Assembly (NCBI RefSeq): GCF_014842925.1
Contig: NZ_JACYXJ010000006.1
Location: forward strand, 62,001-126,000
Length of the DNA stretch: 64,000 bases
Reading direction: 5' to 3'
Source: Roseibium polysiphoniae
GTDB taxonomy: Bacteria > Pseudomonadota > Alphaproteobacteria > Rhizobiales > Stappiaceae
Position numbers and translations under genes: made by a program. Below are positions 1,544 through 43,907 of this stretch, piece by piece. Positions within the stretch are counted from its first letter, which is position 1. Each line of letters starts with the position of its first letter. The notes beneath the pieces were generated by a model. That model did not search any database and had not been told where the DNA came from. It saw only the letters and a program-made list of their open reading frames with translations.

Positions 1544-3619
1544 ATGACCGACTTCAATAACGTCACCCCGGCGTTGGCAACCGCTTTGGCGAACCGCGGC
1601 TACGAGACCCTCACGCCCGTGCAGGAAAGTATCCTCAAGGACGCTCCGCCGGCCGCTGACCTTCTCGTTTCAGCCCAGACCGGGTCAGGCAAGACCGTGG
1701 CTTTCGGCCTCGCGCTGGCGCCAACCCTTCTTGGCGACGAACCTGCCCTTGGCAAAGCAGACGCTCCGATTGCACTGGCAATTGCGCCAACCCGCGAGCT
1801 CGCCCTTCAGGTCAAGGAAGAGCTGACATGGCTTTACAAGGAAGCCGGTGCGCAGACCACATCATGCGTTGGTGGCATGGACCCCAGGACCGAGCGCCGT
1901 GCCCTCGAACGCGGGGTCCACATCGTTGTGGGAACGCCAGGCCGGCTCAAGGATCACATTGAGCGCGGTGCACTGGATCTTTCGCAGATCCGCGCAGTCG
2001 TCCTTGATGAAGCCGATGAAATGCTCGACATGGGCTTTCGTGAAGATCTTGAGTTCATTCTGGATGCAGCGCCGGCCAGCCGACGCACGCTCATGTTCTC
2101 GGCGACGGTCCCGCGCCAGATCGCGGATCTGGCGAAGCGCTTTCAAAAAGATGCGGTCCGCCTGAATACCGTCAGCGCACGCGAACAGCATGGCGACATT
2201 GACTACATTGCCCATCCGGTCGCCCCGAATGAGCGCGAAAACGCGATCATCAACGTGCTGCGACTGCATGAAGCGGAAAAAGCCATTCTTTTCTGTTCGA
2301 CCCGTGAGGCCGTCAAGCGTCTGACCAGCCGGCTGGCCAACCGTGGCTTCTCGATCGTTTCGCTTTCGGGGGAACTGAGCCAGGCCGAACGTTCGAATGC
2401 GCTTCAAGCCATGAAAGACGGCCGCGCGCGCGTCTGCGTTGCCACGGATGTCGCCGCGCGCGGTATCGACTTGCCAAACCTTGACCTTGTCATCCACGCT
2501 GACCTGCCGACCGGCAAGGCTGCACTCTTGCACCGTTCAGGCCGTACCGGTCGTGCAGGCCGCAAGGGTACATGCGTGCTGATGGTGCCCTATCCGCGCC
2601 GACGCGCTGCTGAACGGACGCTCCAGTTCGCCGGTGTCAAAGTCACCTGGAAGCCGGCGCCAACGGCAGCTGACATTCGCGCAAAGGACAAGGAACGTCT
2701 GCTTGCAGATCCGTCGCTCTCTGCCGATCTTGACGGCGACGATCTGGCAATTGCCCGCGAACTTCTCGAAGCACACGGCGCCGAGAAGATTGCGGCTGCC
2801 TTCGTCAAATTGCATCAGGCTCGCCTTCCTGCCGCCGAAGATGTTTCTGAAGCAACAGAAGACAGTCTACGCGGGCGCGGTCCAGGTGAACGCGGCGGGC
2901 GCGTCGCGGAGATTCAGGGCAAGTTCGAAGGCGGCACCTGGTTCCGTCTTTCACTGGGCCACAAGCATCGTGCCGATCCCCGATGGCTGCTTCCGATGAT
3001 CTGCCGGGCAGGTCACGTCACCAAACGCGAAGTCGGTGCAATCAAGATTTTCCAGAACGAGACCCGCTTCGAGATCGATGGTGAGCACGCCCAGCGCTAC
3101 GCCGACGTCATCAAGCGCGACGGCTCTGGCGAAGAAAATGTTACCATCCAGGTCCTTGATTCCAAAGGGGCCAAAGCGCCGCCGTCAGAGGACCGTGGAC
3201 GCCGCGGACCGCCGCGGGATCGCAGCGGCGACCGCCCGTTCAAACGCGGCGGACGTGACGCCTATGAGGGTGGCAAGGAAGACCGCAACGATGGTGAAGG
3301 CCGTCGTGCGCGCCCGCCCCGTGACGGGGCGCCCAGGGACTTCGCTGCCAAGGGCAAGAAGCGCCGCCGCTTCAATGACGACGATCCGCCCCCTTCCCAC
3401 CCGGCGTATGAACCTCTGGATGCCAAGCAGCTCGGCGGCGACAATCGCGAAGAAAAGCCAAAGCGCGAAACCGTCGTTCGCCCGGCAAAGTCTGACGAAG
3501 AGCGTGGACCACGCAAGCCTTCCAAGGGCAAAAAACCTGCAACGTCCAAGCCGGCTGGAAAGAAGAAGCCTGCCAAGGGCAAGCCGTCTCGTGCTGAACG
3601 CAAGGCTTCCAAGGCCTAG
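1544..3619 (+). CDS. deaD: DEAD-box ATP-dependent RNA helicase with DbpA-type RNA-binding domain
   Basis: Unwinds RNA duplexes in ribosome assembly and mRNA turnover; cytoplasmic. All helicase motifs are present: Q-motif region near residue 20, AQTGSGKT near 44-51, PTREL, TPGR, DEAD at about 155-158, SAT near 186, and HRSGRTGRAG near 329. Residues about 450-545 resemble the DbpA/DeaD C-terminal RNA-binding fold. The last 140 residues are a low-complexity Arg/Gly/Lys-rich tail typical of RNA helicases. At 691 residues it is close to DeaD/CsdA-type proteins and longer than RhlE or DbpA. It is monocistronic, ending at a clear intrinsic terminator. The exact subfamily (DeaD versus another DbpA-domain helicase) is inferred from domain order. 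Confidence 0.9.
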   Translation: MTDFNNVTPALATALANRGYETLTPVQESILKDAPPAADLLVSAQTGSGKTVAFGLALAPTLLGDEPALGKADAPIALAIAPTRELALQVKEELTWLYKEAGAQTTSCVGGMDPRTERRALERGVHIVVGTPGRLKDHIERGALDLSQIRAVVLDEADEMLDMGFREDLEFILDAAPASRRTLMFSATVPRQIADLAKRFQKDAVRLNTVSAREQHGDIDYIAHPVAPNERENAIINVLRLHEAEKAILFCSTREAVKRLTSRLANRGFSIVSLSGELSQAERSNALQAMKDGRARVCVATDVAARGIDLPNLDLVIHADLPTGKAALLHRSGRTGRAGRKGTCVLMVPYPRRRAAERTLQFAGVKVTWKPAPTAADIRAKDKERLLADPSLSADLDGDDLAIARELLEAHGAEKIAAAFVKLHQARLPAAEDVSEATEDSLRGRGPGERGGRVAEIQGKFEGGTWFRLSLGHKHRADPRWLLPMICRAGHVTKREVGAIKIFQNETRFEIDGEHAQRYADVIKRDGSGEENVTIQVLDSKGAKAPPSEDRGRRGPPRDRSGDRPFKRGGRDAYEGGKEDRNDGEGRRARPPRDGAPRDFAAKGKKRRRFNDDDPPPSHPAYEPLDAKQLGGDNREEKPKRETVVRPAKSDEERGPRKPSKGKKPATSKPAGKKKPAKGKPSRAERKASKA

Positions 3620-5910: not shown

Positions 5911-5947
5911 AATAGGTGGGTTGGTTCAAATAACCAGCCCACCTATT
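5911..5947 (-). promoter_or_regulatory. 16-bp hairpin in the leader of the exonuclease gene
   Basis: AATAGGTGGG (5911-5920) pairs with CCCACCTATT (5938-5947), and TGGTT (5922-5926) with AACCA (5932-5936), separated by one T-G wobble and a five-base loop. The hairpin is between the stop of the upstream SH3/DUF4189 gene and the exonuclease ATG. On the minus strand it is followed by a mildly T-rich stretch that runs into the start codon. It could terminate the upstream transcript or hide the translation start. Confidence 0.6.
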
Positions 5948-5981
5948 CAGTCACCATTTTCGACTTAAGTGTTTGCCCCGC

Positions 5982-6881
5982 CTATTGGCAGTAGGTGTAT
6001 TCAATCTTGCACCCGGAGGCCCCGGCGTTGGTGCAAAAGCCGAGAGCGAAGCTCCTCGCGGCTTGTTCATTCTGCCCGGCACCGAACCAGGATCCGCCGG
6101 GCACCTGGGCAAGAGCATGACACTTTGCGTCGGTGACGTCGAAGATCTGACATCCCTGCTCACCACAGTACTGCATCGCAAATTTCTCGGCATCAGCGAC
6201 AGTTCGGCCCGCACCATGACCAAAGCGCCCATCGCTGCCAACTGCAAAGGCCATGAAGCCGCTGCCTTTACGTGTGATGGTCGACTGGTTTGCGGGCGCC
6301 TGTGATATGTTTTGGCAGGAACTGTAGATCCCCTCGATCCTCGGACCGTTCGAGCACATAATGCCACCCCATTGGTAGCCGCGCTTGCCGTTGTCAAAGA
6401 CAACCTCAAACCAGTCATAGCCATCAAAGCGAACGTTTGTGTTGTTCAGGATGGTCAGCCACATGCCTTCTGCGACGCTGCCGATCTGGCTAAAATTGGT
6501 CCCCGGTCCATCTCTCAACTTCCCGCCAAGAGACTGTCCGACAGCATTGATCGCTTCGGCCTGCGCTTGGGCCCTCGGTTGCGCGAAGACACTCTCGCAA
6601 GGAAAGGACACATCGCCGAACCAGAGCGTCGCGCGCCGCCCTTTCATCTCGAGCGAGATCTCTTCAGCGTCATTTGCATAGACGTTCTCTTGATGAGGCG
6701 TCATTGAAAAACGAGAATTAGCATCTTCATAATATGCCCTTCCCTCTTCAGGAACCACTTTAACGAGAGCACTTCCATCGCCCATAGAACAGCGGTACTC
6801 GCTGTTTGCGCTTGCGGACGCCTGACCAATGGCAGATCCAGACAGACACAGGGTTGCTGCGACGACCCAAATTGATTTCAT
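5982..6881 (-). CDS. Secreted SH3-like and DUF4189 domain protein
   Basis: Exported protein with a signal peptide (residues 1-23 of the chosen start). A bacterial SH3-type domain lies around 110-180: LRDGPGTNFSQIGSVAEG, then WLTILN, WFEV and GKRGYQWGG. A C-terminal DUF4189-like domain spans about 210-299, built from AFAVGSDGRFGHGAGRTVADAEKFAMQYC, with paired cysteines. Such domains occur in envelope and host-contact proteins; the ligand is unknown. ATG at 6881 is preferred over an upstream TTG at 6899 because AAGGGG lies nine bases before it and the signal peptide then starts correctly. It is divergent from the Lhr helicase across a LexA-type site. Confidence 0.8.
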   Translation of the reverse strand: MKSIWVVAATLCLSGSAIGQASASANSEYRCSMGDGSALVKVVPEEGRAYYEDANSRFSMTPHQENVYANDAEEISLEMKGRRATLWFGDVSFPCESVFAQPRAQAQAEAINAVGQSLGGKLRDGPGTNFSQIGSVAEGMWLTILNNTNVRFDGYDWFEVVFDNGKRGYQWGGIMCSNGPRIEGIYSSCQNISQAPANQSTITRKGSGFMAFAVGSDGRFGHGAGRTVADAEKFAMQYCGEQGCQIFDVTDAKCHALAQVPGGSWFGAGQNEQAARSFALGFCTNAGASGCKIEYTYCQ

Positions 6882-41765: not shown

Positions 41766-41790
41766 TCTGACTTTTCATCTGGGACAATCG

Positions 41791-41819
41791 AAAGAGCGGT
41801 GCCCGGCGCCGCTCTTTTT
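41791..41819 (+). terminator. Rho-independent terminator of lysK
   Basis: AAAGAGCGG (41791-41799) pairs with CCGCTCTTT (41809-41817), followed by TT. The A-rich 5' arm also makes it usable for the convergent gene that ends at 41837. Confidence 0.88.
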
Positions 41820-41836: not shown

Positions 41837-42745
41837 CTATCGCGGGAAACGCCTCTGGCTCTCGCGGTAGTGCGCCATTTCCTGCTTGAGCTTTTCGATC
41901 TGCTGCAGAACCCGCTCTGTCTCCCGGCGGATCAGAAGTCGTTCGGCCTCCGCCTCAACGGCGATTTCCTCGCTCACCAACTCACTTTCCAGCCGCATCA
42001 GGCGCATCTCGGAAAGATCCTCATCAATCTCTTCCTGCTCGATTTCAGTTTGCACAAGCTCGGCAAAAGACAAACCCAACAGCGGATTGATCAGAGCAAC
42101 GAGCAAGATCGTCCAAAACAGACAGACCGGGAGCCAGACGAGCGGATCGCGCTCAGCCAAGGCAAACAGCTCATACCAGGGCGCAAGGTCGGACAGGCAC
42201 AGACGAAAAAGGGTTTCACACGCCCGGATGAAGCTGCCGAATTCGACCGGATGTTTATGGCCGAGCAGATCCACTGCCAAGACGGCCACTGCACAGACCC
42301 CTGAAACCAAAAGGCCGAGCGAGAGCAGTAACTCCCGCAGCAGACGGCCGCACCAACGGAACACAAAGGCAGGAAGGCGCCAGCGAGCCACGACATCTGG
42401 CCAGCCAATGATGGCCACCAAGCGAAAGACAAGGATCGCCGGTGCATTCAATCCGATCGCAAGGACGGCGATGCTCAGATGATAGAGGTTCCAGTGCCAG
42501 CGGAAAAAACGCAAACCTTCCAGCAGAAAGCGGAGCAGAAGCTCCAGTGCCACGACGACAAGAATCGCGCCCTTCAGGAGTTGCCATAGCTCCGCAAGGT
42601 CCTGCCCCTCCGCCCTTTCGCCTCTAAAAACAGACGCCAACACCAAGAGCACGAGCGCCAGCAGCGTGAGGCCTAACCCCAGGCGTTCTAATCGATATCG
42701 CTCGTCCCATGATAACCTTCGCCACCCCATCGCCGTCTCCCGCAT
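41837..42745 (-). CDS. Degenerate voltage-gated-channel-like membrane protein (no S4 charges)
   Basis: Membrane protein of 302 residues that aligns with the adjacent voltage-gated channel. RFFRWHWNLYHL (79-90) matches the channel's RFFKDPWNLFDF at the S2-S3 boundary. Residues 162-191 (LGHKHPVEFG and SFIRACETLF onward) match its pore region almost without gaps, with G, P, F, G, R, T, L, F identical. The four S4 arginines are missing (APAILVFRLVAIIGW instead). The filter TLESW reads LSDLA, keeping one acid (Asp186). A long charged C-terminal coiled coil covers about 228-298. It is 84 bases downstream of the channel gene on the same strand, so they may be one operon. A regulatory or ancillary subunit is an inference. 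Confidence 0.7.
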   Translation of the reverse strand: MRETAMGWRRLSWDERYRLERLGLGLTLLALVLLVLASVFRGERAEGQDLAELWQLLKGAILVVVALELLLRFLLEGLRFFRWHWNLYHLSIAVLAIGLNAPAILVFRLVAIIGWPDVVARWRLPAFVFRWCGRLLRELLLSLGLLVSGVCAVAVLAVDLLGHKHPVEFGSFIRACETLFRLCLSDLAPWYELFALAERDPLVWLPVCLFWTILLVALINPLLGLSFAELVQTEIEQEEIDEDLSEMRLMRLESELVSEEIAVEAEAERLLIRRETERVLQQIEKLKQEMAHYRESQRRFPR

Positions 42746-42829
42746 CTCTCCCTCTCGAAAGGGGACGCATGAGCGGGCGGAAAATGACGACCGCCGAGAC
42801 GTTTTCTATCGGGTAAGCAACATCCGGCC

Positions 42830-43627
42830 TTACCGTCCCTGTTCCTGACTGCGTCTGAATTCCGCCATTTCGGCACGCAACTCGCGAACCTCTGTCAGGA
42901 TATGCTCGGCTTCCGTGTGAATGGCCTTGCGGTCTTCATCGGCGGTGTGCTCGTGCTCCTCCTGCATGGCGGAGACGATGATACCGATAAACAGGTTCAA
43001 CACCGTGAAGGCCGTGCACAGGATGAAAGGCACGAAGAAAAGCCAGGAATTCGGGAAGACCTCCATCACTGGGCGCACGATGCCCATGGACCAGCTTTCC
43101 AGCGTCATGATCTGGAACAGCGTGTAGATCGACCGGCCAAGATTTCCGAACCATTCCGGAAAGGCCTCGCCGTAAAGCTTGGTCGCCATGACGGCAAAGA
43201 CATAGAAAACCAGTGCCATCAGAACCACGATAGAGCCCATGCCGGGCAGCGCGGAAACCAGCCCGCCGATGACCCTGCGCAGCGACGGCACGACGGAAAT
43301 CAGACGCAGAACACGCAGGATACGCAAAGCGCGCAGCACCGCAAATGGCCCGCTCGTCGGGACGAGGGCAATGCTGACGATGATGAAATCGAAGAGGTTC
43401 CAGGGATCCTTGAAGAAGCGAAACCCGTTGGCCACGATCCGCAGGCTGATCTCCACGACGAAGACCATCAGGATGAAGCGGTCGAAGCCCGTCAACACGC
43501 CACCGAGCGCTTCTGTGGCGGCTGTGGAGGTTTCCAGGCCCAATGTGATCGCATTGATGACAATCAGCCCTACGATGGCCAGTTCCCACTCACGCGATCC
43601 CGTGAGCGCCTTCAATTTGTCGCGCAT
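42830..43627 (-). CDS. NaChBac-type voltage-gated cation channel
   Basis: Six-helix ion channel subunit of 265 residues, expected to form tetramers in the inner membrane. The voltage sensor S4 has arginines every third residue: VLRALRILRVLRLI (Arg99, 102, 105, 108). The pore holds FQIMTLESWSMGIVRP with the TLESW filter at 175-179, the signature of bacterial sodium channels. S6 is FILCTAFTVLNLFIGIIVSAM, followed by a C-terminal coiled coil (about 235-262). ATG at 43627 with AGGGTG upstream is chosen; the longer frame adds 45 unconserved residues. A second, degenerate channel-like gene follows. Confidence 0.93.
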   Translation of the reverse strand: MRDKLKALTGSREWELAIVGLIVINAITLGLETSTAATEALGGVLTGFDRFILMVFVVEISLRIVANGFRFFKDPWNLFDFIIVSIALVPTSGPFAVLRALRILRVLRLISVVPSLRRVIGGLVSALPGMGSIVVLMALVFYVFAVMATKLYGEAFPEWFGNLGRSIYTLFQIMTLESWSMGIVRPVMEVFPNSWLFFVPFILCTAFTVLNLFIGIIVSAMQEEHEHTADEDRKAIHTEAEHILTEVRELRAEMAEFRRSQEQGR

Positions 43628-43833: not shown

Positions 43834-43907
43834 GCGGGTGTAGCTCAATGGTAGAGCAGAAGCTTCCCAAGCTTAAGACGAGGGTTCGATTCCCTTCACC
43901 CGCTCCA
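43834..43907 (+). tRNA. tRNA-Gly (CCC)
   Basis: A 74-base tRNA with the 3' CCA encoded. The acceptor stem is GCGGGTG with CACCCGC, the D-arm AGCTCAATGGTAGAGCA, the anticodon loop TTCCCAA (anticodon CCC at 43866-43868), and the T-arm AGGGTTCGATTCCCT. It reads GGG codons. Its last 12 bases are overlapped antisense by the end of the glycosyltransferase gene. Confidence 0.97.

Follow-up and report, generated by a model that had tools for sequence, protein, structure and literature searches.

Can a bacterial voltage-gated sodium channel (Nav) be accompanied by a degenerate subunit encoded in the adjacent gene? The question is raised by a locus of Roseibium polysiphoniae within a 64,000-nucleotide stretch of DNA, hereafter the window, where the channel gene P1 has a diverged relative, P2, next to it in the same orientation. 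A preliminary description of the sequence proposed that the second protein could form hetero-oligomers with the channel or act as a modulatory subunit. The sources consulted present the known bacterial channels as homotetramers (PMC4225499, PMC6487023, PMC7764494). The features of the locus are as follows.

42830..43627, minus strand: P1, a bacterial voltage-gated sodium channel of the NavMs/NavAb type, 265 residues (PF00520 E 1.9e-42; NavMs 5hvx, the closest solved relative, E 3.2e-82)
42839..42967, minus strand: residues 221-263 of P1, its C-terminal linker and coiled coil, which share homology with the tail of P2 (aligned without gaps to P2 residues 257-299)
41837..42745, minus strand: P2, a diverged Nav paralogue of 302 residues with no RxxRxxR in S4 and no TLESW (PF00520 E 4e-10; present in 4 genomes)
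42068..42745, minus strand: residues 1-226 of P2, its membrane part (S1-S6), which evolves fast and is predicted to fold like a Nav (AF2; dN/dS 0.65 and 0.40)
41840..42067, minus strand: long C-terminal helix of P2, residues 227-302, its most conserved part (AF2 helix 227-299; dN/dS 0.04 between the window and G026)
41849..41977, minus strand: segment of the P2 tail, residues 257-299, with homology to the linker and coiled coil at the Nav C-terminus (alignment score 74)
41790..41818, no strand assigned: weak 13-pair hairpin resembling a terminator, in the space between P2 and lysS, which converge there (4 such sites in the region against a shuffle mean of 2.8)

A sodium channel gene and its diverged neighbour

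Both open reading frames are intact and lie on the minus strand, with lysS next to them in the opposite direction. P1 displays every feature of the bacterial Nav family that was looked for, namely Ion_trans homology, S4 arginines at every third residue (R99/R102/R105/R108) and a TLE[SG]W filter (TLESW, residues 175-179), and the initial assignment of a channel gene with a normal S4 and filter is thereby confirmed. The distance between P1 and P2 varies by species, being 44-84 bp when counted to the first ATG of P2 and 71-99 bp when counted to the second in-frame ATG. The latter, at 42730 in the window, is perhaps the real start (giving 297 residues), since the proteins of the relatives align there; the three sequences read each have a purine-rich segment ahead of it. 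Scans of three of the P1-P2 gaps revealed no terminator-like site. A tRNA-Gly (CCC) gene is located just upstream of P1 on the opposite strand (43834-43907).

Judged by its sequence, P2 is a true divergent Nav homologue. The profile search that had been proposed as a check finds the window's P2 similar to the ion-channel family, with an hmmscan match to PF00520 of 39.8 bits against a curated cut-off of 25; P1 and P2 match each other in blastp at E 7e-5, and P2 matches NavAb-type PDB chains at E 3.5e-6. The S2-S3 alignment (RFFRWHWNLYHL against RFFKDPWNLFDF) and the common register of P, F, G, R, T, L and F in the two pore helices read as they had been reported. Besides the window's genome, P2 is carried by G026 (90% identical), R. 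suaedae G021 (40%) and R. litorale G029 (33%), and three of the four proteins match Pfam Ion_trans at E <= 0.1; taken alone, R. litorale P2 reaches 19.3 bits, below the PF00520 cut-off, and the R. suaedae protein matches nothing in Pfam. The first PF00520 search of the window's genome, which gave three matches, was less sensitive than hmmscan, because P2 was missed there. Chance similarity of helical membrane proteins was considered and rejected in view of the Pfam score of the window's P2, the adjacency of the two genes in all four carriers, and the tail shuffle tests described below. Two further PF00520 genes are present in the window's genome (L003 1357-2385, L002 1345-2724), and one of them bears a TTTGFGD stretch, which we take to be potassium-channel-like.

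That P2 is a diverged copy of P1 without a normal voltage sensor is supported by this homology together with the loss of the RxxRxxR spacing in 4/4 P2s. The stronger claim that S4 arginines are altogether missing has to be narrowed: the every-third-residue arrangement is gone in all four proteins, but single arginines remain, R108 being kept in 4/4 in alignment A1. In a second alignment, arginine stands at two, three, one, and two of the four S4 columns of P1 in the P2s of the window, G026, R. suaedae, and R. litorale, respectively, and S4 is broken by a 7-residue insert in the first two. Charge partners have been lost as well, E59 of P1 in two and D80 in three of the four proteins, and N25 and E32 in all of them; by comparison with 40 Nav rows, W159, Q172, T175, S178, and W179 are likewise lost in 4/4, and F71, W76, P157, F160, and G161 are kept in 4/4.

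The reported replacement of TLESW by LSDLA in the window's P2 holds, and TxExW occurs in none of the four P2s. All of them lack a TLE[SG]W filter, with the T, S, and W columns changed throughout; the column of the filter glutamate (177) holds D, E, E, and T, i.e., it is acidic in 3/4 in one alignment. The filter segment differs among the members and is gapped in R. litorale. Since P2 lacks two defining Nav features, the S4 spacing and the filter, it is not filed here as a Nav channel; the loss of the usual filter is suggestive of a protein that no longer conducts, and P2 is classed as Nav-derived, with a probable role as a subunit. A proline is present in S6 of 4/4 P2s (A1), and S6 of the R. 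suaedae and R. litorale proteins also holds a histidine and an arginine. Arginines and a histidine of polycystin-1 are said, in the accessible part of one source, to block the PC1/PC2 pore (PMC12183636), and by analogy the S6 residues of these two P2s could plug a pore, an idea that is only a lead because the window's P2 has neither.

The fold of P2 was predicted by AF2. With Nav rows in the alignment, the mean pLDDT was 82.7, the helices matched S1-S6 and the pore helices, the pore part superposed on a Nav pore at 2.1 A over 89 residues, and CatSper chains were among the structural matches. The good model partly reflects the added Nav rows, because the model built from P2 sequences only was poor in its membrane part (mean pLDDT 58.3) and gave no Foldseek match at E <= 0.001; the helix 227-299 was predicted both with and without the Nav rows. 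For the second fold, alignment A6 was used, in which the Nav rows were cut after NLFIG because the Nav tails had been spread across P2 in alignments A4 and A5. The predicted six helices and pore helices, the superposition on a Nav pore, and the mostly acidic column of the filter glutamate would suit a P2 that forms a homotetrameric ion channel of its own, with changed selectivity and voltage-independent gating. Such a channel is nevertheless very unlikely, as no conserved pore chemistry is evident in a family with a variable filter segment, a gap there in R. litorale, and an S6 proline in every member.

Distribution and history of P2

Among the 45 Roseibium genomes searched, 42 contain a Nav gene (E <= 1e-30) and four contain P2. 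All four carriers have P2 directly downstream of Nav in the same orientation, with the convergent lysS as its other neighbour; thus, the gene-neighbour survey found no sign of the regular separation from channel genes that would have spoken against a link between the two. Of the 42 Roseibium genomes with a Nav gene, 38 gave no P2, which is therefore not generally needed for the channel. In R. limicola (G014), 89 bp separate the Nav gene from lysS, and P2 is absent from that interval. A weak match elsewhere in the same genome (E 0.016) was rejected as P2: it has no Nav-profile match, scores 14 bits against the P2 profile, and covers the first half only.

Beyond the genus, profile A1 recovered the four P2s at E <= 1.4e-125 in the 87 genomes of the family (the genus included), everything else lying at E >= 5.5e-15, and the 18 regions fetched from other genera of the family hold Navs or Nav pieces and no P2. 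In samples of the order (397) and the class (385), with up to six candidates scored per genome, seven further proteins were found at E <= 1e-17, all of them with TLE[SG]W and none a P2; a very diverged P2 would have escaped these searches. Scans of genomic and viral contig collections with the P2 alignment confirmed no relative, the genomic scan being one that missed the R. suaedae and R. litorale P2 records present in that collection. A search of 297 genomes of the order with a single P2 gave matches at E <= 0.001 in 90. The listed open reading frames of loci L001-L058, drawn from two other searches and from the stronger matches of this one, were rejected as P2 since, the P2s and the other channels of the window's genome (L002/L003) aside, they score far higher against P1 than against P2; nine of them did not match the filter pattern and were judged by score alone.

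The history of P2 was examined on trees of Nav (48 rows), LysRS (30 of the 45 genomes), and both jointly (27 rows). On the LysRS and joint trees, the presence of P2 needs two changes, and among 200 bootstrap trees a single change suffices in 0% and 20%; the starred branches of these trees are compatible with a single P2 change. P2 may have been acquired a single time with later losses, or have had another history.

Other Nav pairs were met along the way. Tandem Nav genes, one with TLEGW and one with TLESW, are present in four of 16 g125 genomes of the same family (L100 1456-3501; L101 2664-4857; L102 2315-4481; L103 2252-4257, the first Nav copy of L103 being split over two overlapping frames). 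These are natural pairs of different channels, which could also mix. In G357 (L108 1800-3089), a 107-residue open reading frame matching only the pore part of Navs comes after an intact Nav gene and runs in the same direction, and the MAG contig L170 carries two TLESW Nav genes on the same strand, about 2.6 kb apart (2170-3348 and 5944-6798).

Selection and the C-terminal tail

Between the window and G026, dN/dS is 0.01 for P1 and 0.31 (95% 0.18-0.58) for P2, where it divides into 0.65 (95% 0.35-1.33) for the membrane part and 0.04 (0-0.12) for the tail. Between R. suaedae and R. litorale, the values are 0.08 for P1, 0.25 (0.16-0.37) for P2, and 0.40 (0.27-0.58) for the membrane part of P2; the ratio of the tail is not estimable because synonymous sites are saturated, and, compared as proteins, the two P2s are more alike in the tail than in the membrane part (79% vs. 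49%, with slightly different boundaries). The whole-gene ratios are well below 1, and P2 is therefore a protein under purifying selection, with the constraint gathered, as far as measurable, in the tail. A decaying functionless duplicate would match the patchy distribution (4/45 Roseibium genomes) and the membrane part of the window/G026 pair, where selection is indistinguishable from none; set against the open frame in 4/4 P2s, the whole-gene omega in both pairs, and the 0.04 of one tail, decay appears highly improbable. In the window/G026 comparison of P2 (41840-42730), the tail shows more synonymous divergence (0.425) than the membrane part does (0.094), for which recombination or codon bias might be responsible.

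The preliminary description credited P2 with a longer C-terminal coiled coil. The tail is indeed longer, but the extra length is an insert of 27 residues between the S6 asparagine and the part homologous to P1. In that part, residues 257-299 of P2 align with 221-263 of P1 without gaps over 43 residues, with a score of 74 vs. 32 +/- 5.4 for shuffles, and the score was matched by 0/2000 plain and 0/2000 heptad-keeping shuffles; across the 15 tail pairs tested, at most 2/2000 shuffles reached it. Thus, both sequence homology and the predicted helix identify a C-terminal coiled coil in P2.

The P2 tails are closer to Roseibium Nav tails than to others, with AUC values of 0.86, 0.87, 0.98, and 0.96 for the window, G026, R. 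suaedae, and R. litorale; for the membrane parts, the corresponding values are 0.63, 0.77, 0.43, and 0.52, that of G026 still being significant (p 9e-7). The comparison set comprised 130 distinct Nav rows (39 Roseibium, 91 others), rows without a filter or tail pattern having been left out. Because the tails resemble Roseibium Navs much more than the membrane parts do, P2 is read as originating from a Roseibium Nav gene, with its membrane part under relaxed constraint.

Only the window's P2 tail scores highest with its own partner (74 vs. 57-71). The Nav tail of G006, a genome without P2, fits the R. suaedae and R. litorale P2 tails like those of their own partners (63 vs. 63 and 63 vs. 64). 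This absence of a preference for the own partner in two of three species tested, together with a tail helix longer than that of Nav and a fast-evolving membrane part, is in line with P2 forming homo-oligomers via its long coiled coil and acting in the membrane as a scaffold or sensor that has nothing to do with the Nav current, its adjacency to Nav only recording its origin. It is an unlikely explanation, though: P2 adjoins Nav in every carrier despite divergence to 33-40% identity, and its tail keeps the Nav register.

The corresponding region of NavMs is composed of a flexible linker and a four-helix coiled coil, with one helix per subunit; in the portion of the paper available, the authors think that it stabilises the tetramer, and it couples inactivation to opening (PMC3791462). 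If P2 joined a shared bundle of this kind, its 27-residue insert would offset the bundle or need to loop out. A tail that is the most constrained part of P2 and a NavMs tail that may stabilise the tetramer (PMC3791462) could also mean that P2 is an assembly factor or dominant-negative trap only, whose tail binds nascent Nav and lowers the number of channels, P2 itself being absent from the mature channel. We consider this quite improbable, since the membrane part of P2 is still somewhat constrained in one pair (0.40, 95% 0.27-0.58).

A candidate silent subunit

The explanation preferred here, which we hold with about even confidence, is that P2 is a Nav duplicate turned into a silent, modulatory subunit that joins Nav via the C-terminal bundle. 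P2 would have arisen in place by duplication of a Roseibium Nav gene and would be co-transcribed and co-expressed with Nav; it would then join the Nav subunits through the shared helical bundle, taking one or two places in the tetramer or docking on the cytoplasmic bundle. With neither a normal voltage sensor nor a normal selectivity filter, it would be voltage-insensitive and probably no longer conduct, and may lower or tune the Nav current. The subunit reading is the simplest one because the adjoining gene keeps its tail under selection while shedding the sensor and the filter. The original suggestion of a hetero-oligomer or modulatory subunit appears to gain support from the tail, conserved and homologous to that of Nav.

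Like the bacterial Navs NaChBac, NavAb, and NavMs, P2 has Ion_trans homology and a homologous C-terminal linker and coiled coil, and its gene adjoins that of a bacterial Nav; it differs from them in having neither the RxxRxxR spacing nor TLESW and in the insert after S6. P2 is, in keeping with silent and regulatory subunits, a diverged paralogue of the channel that it accompanies. Silent subunits are known from KvS channels, according to the text seen of one source (PMC12113274); those electrically silent proteins (Kv5/6/8/9) are subunits of mammalian potassium channels, whereas P2 is bacterial, is a paralogue of Nav, and lacks the usual filter. The proposed role of P2 also resembles that of polycystin-1 as a degenerate subunit beside channel subunits: structural data suggest one degenerate and three channel subunits in the PC1/PC2 heterotetramer (PMC12183636, in part), and the C-terminal domain matters for the assembly of PKD2L1 (PMC4377555, in part). 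Polycystin-1, however, belongs to an animal TRP-type channel, and the likeness lies in the proposed role. In CatSper, single-domain channel proteins are believed to assemble as a heteromer (PMC2572835, in part), but there four different subunits are combined in animals, whereas P2 is a single degenerate protein encoded beside a single bacterial channel. Among the matches listed from the open-licence literature, none describes a bacterial sodium channel with a degenerate subunit encoded alongside it.

A bolder and distinctly tentative proposal is that this is a naturally heteromeric bacterial sodium channel, in which a voltage-insensitive, filterless paralogue enters the tetramer via its extended coiled coil and sets gating or current, as an independently evolved counterpart of KvS and polycystin-1. 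It is the symmetry of their homotetramers that makes bacterial Navs the standard simple models of voltage-gated sodium channels, and a degenerate partner that occurs naturally and is maintained would make this family asymmetric in part. Nav and P2 together would give a minimal system for the control of a channel by a pseudo-subunit, and P2 would show, within a single genus, how silent subunits arise: the sensor and the filter go, and the assembly domain stays.
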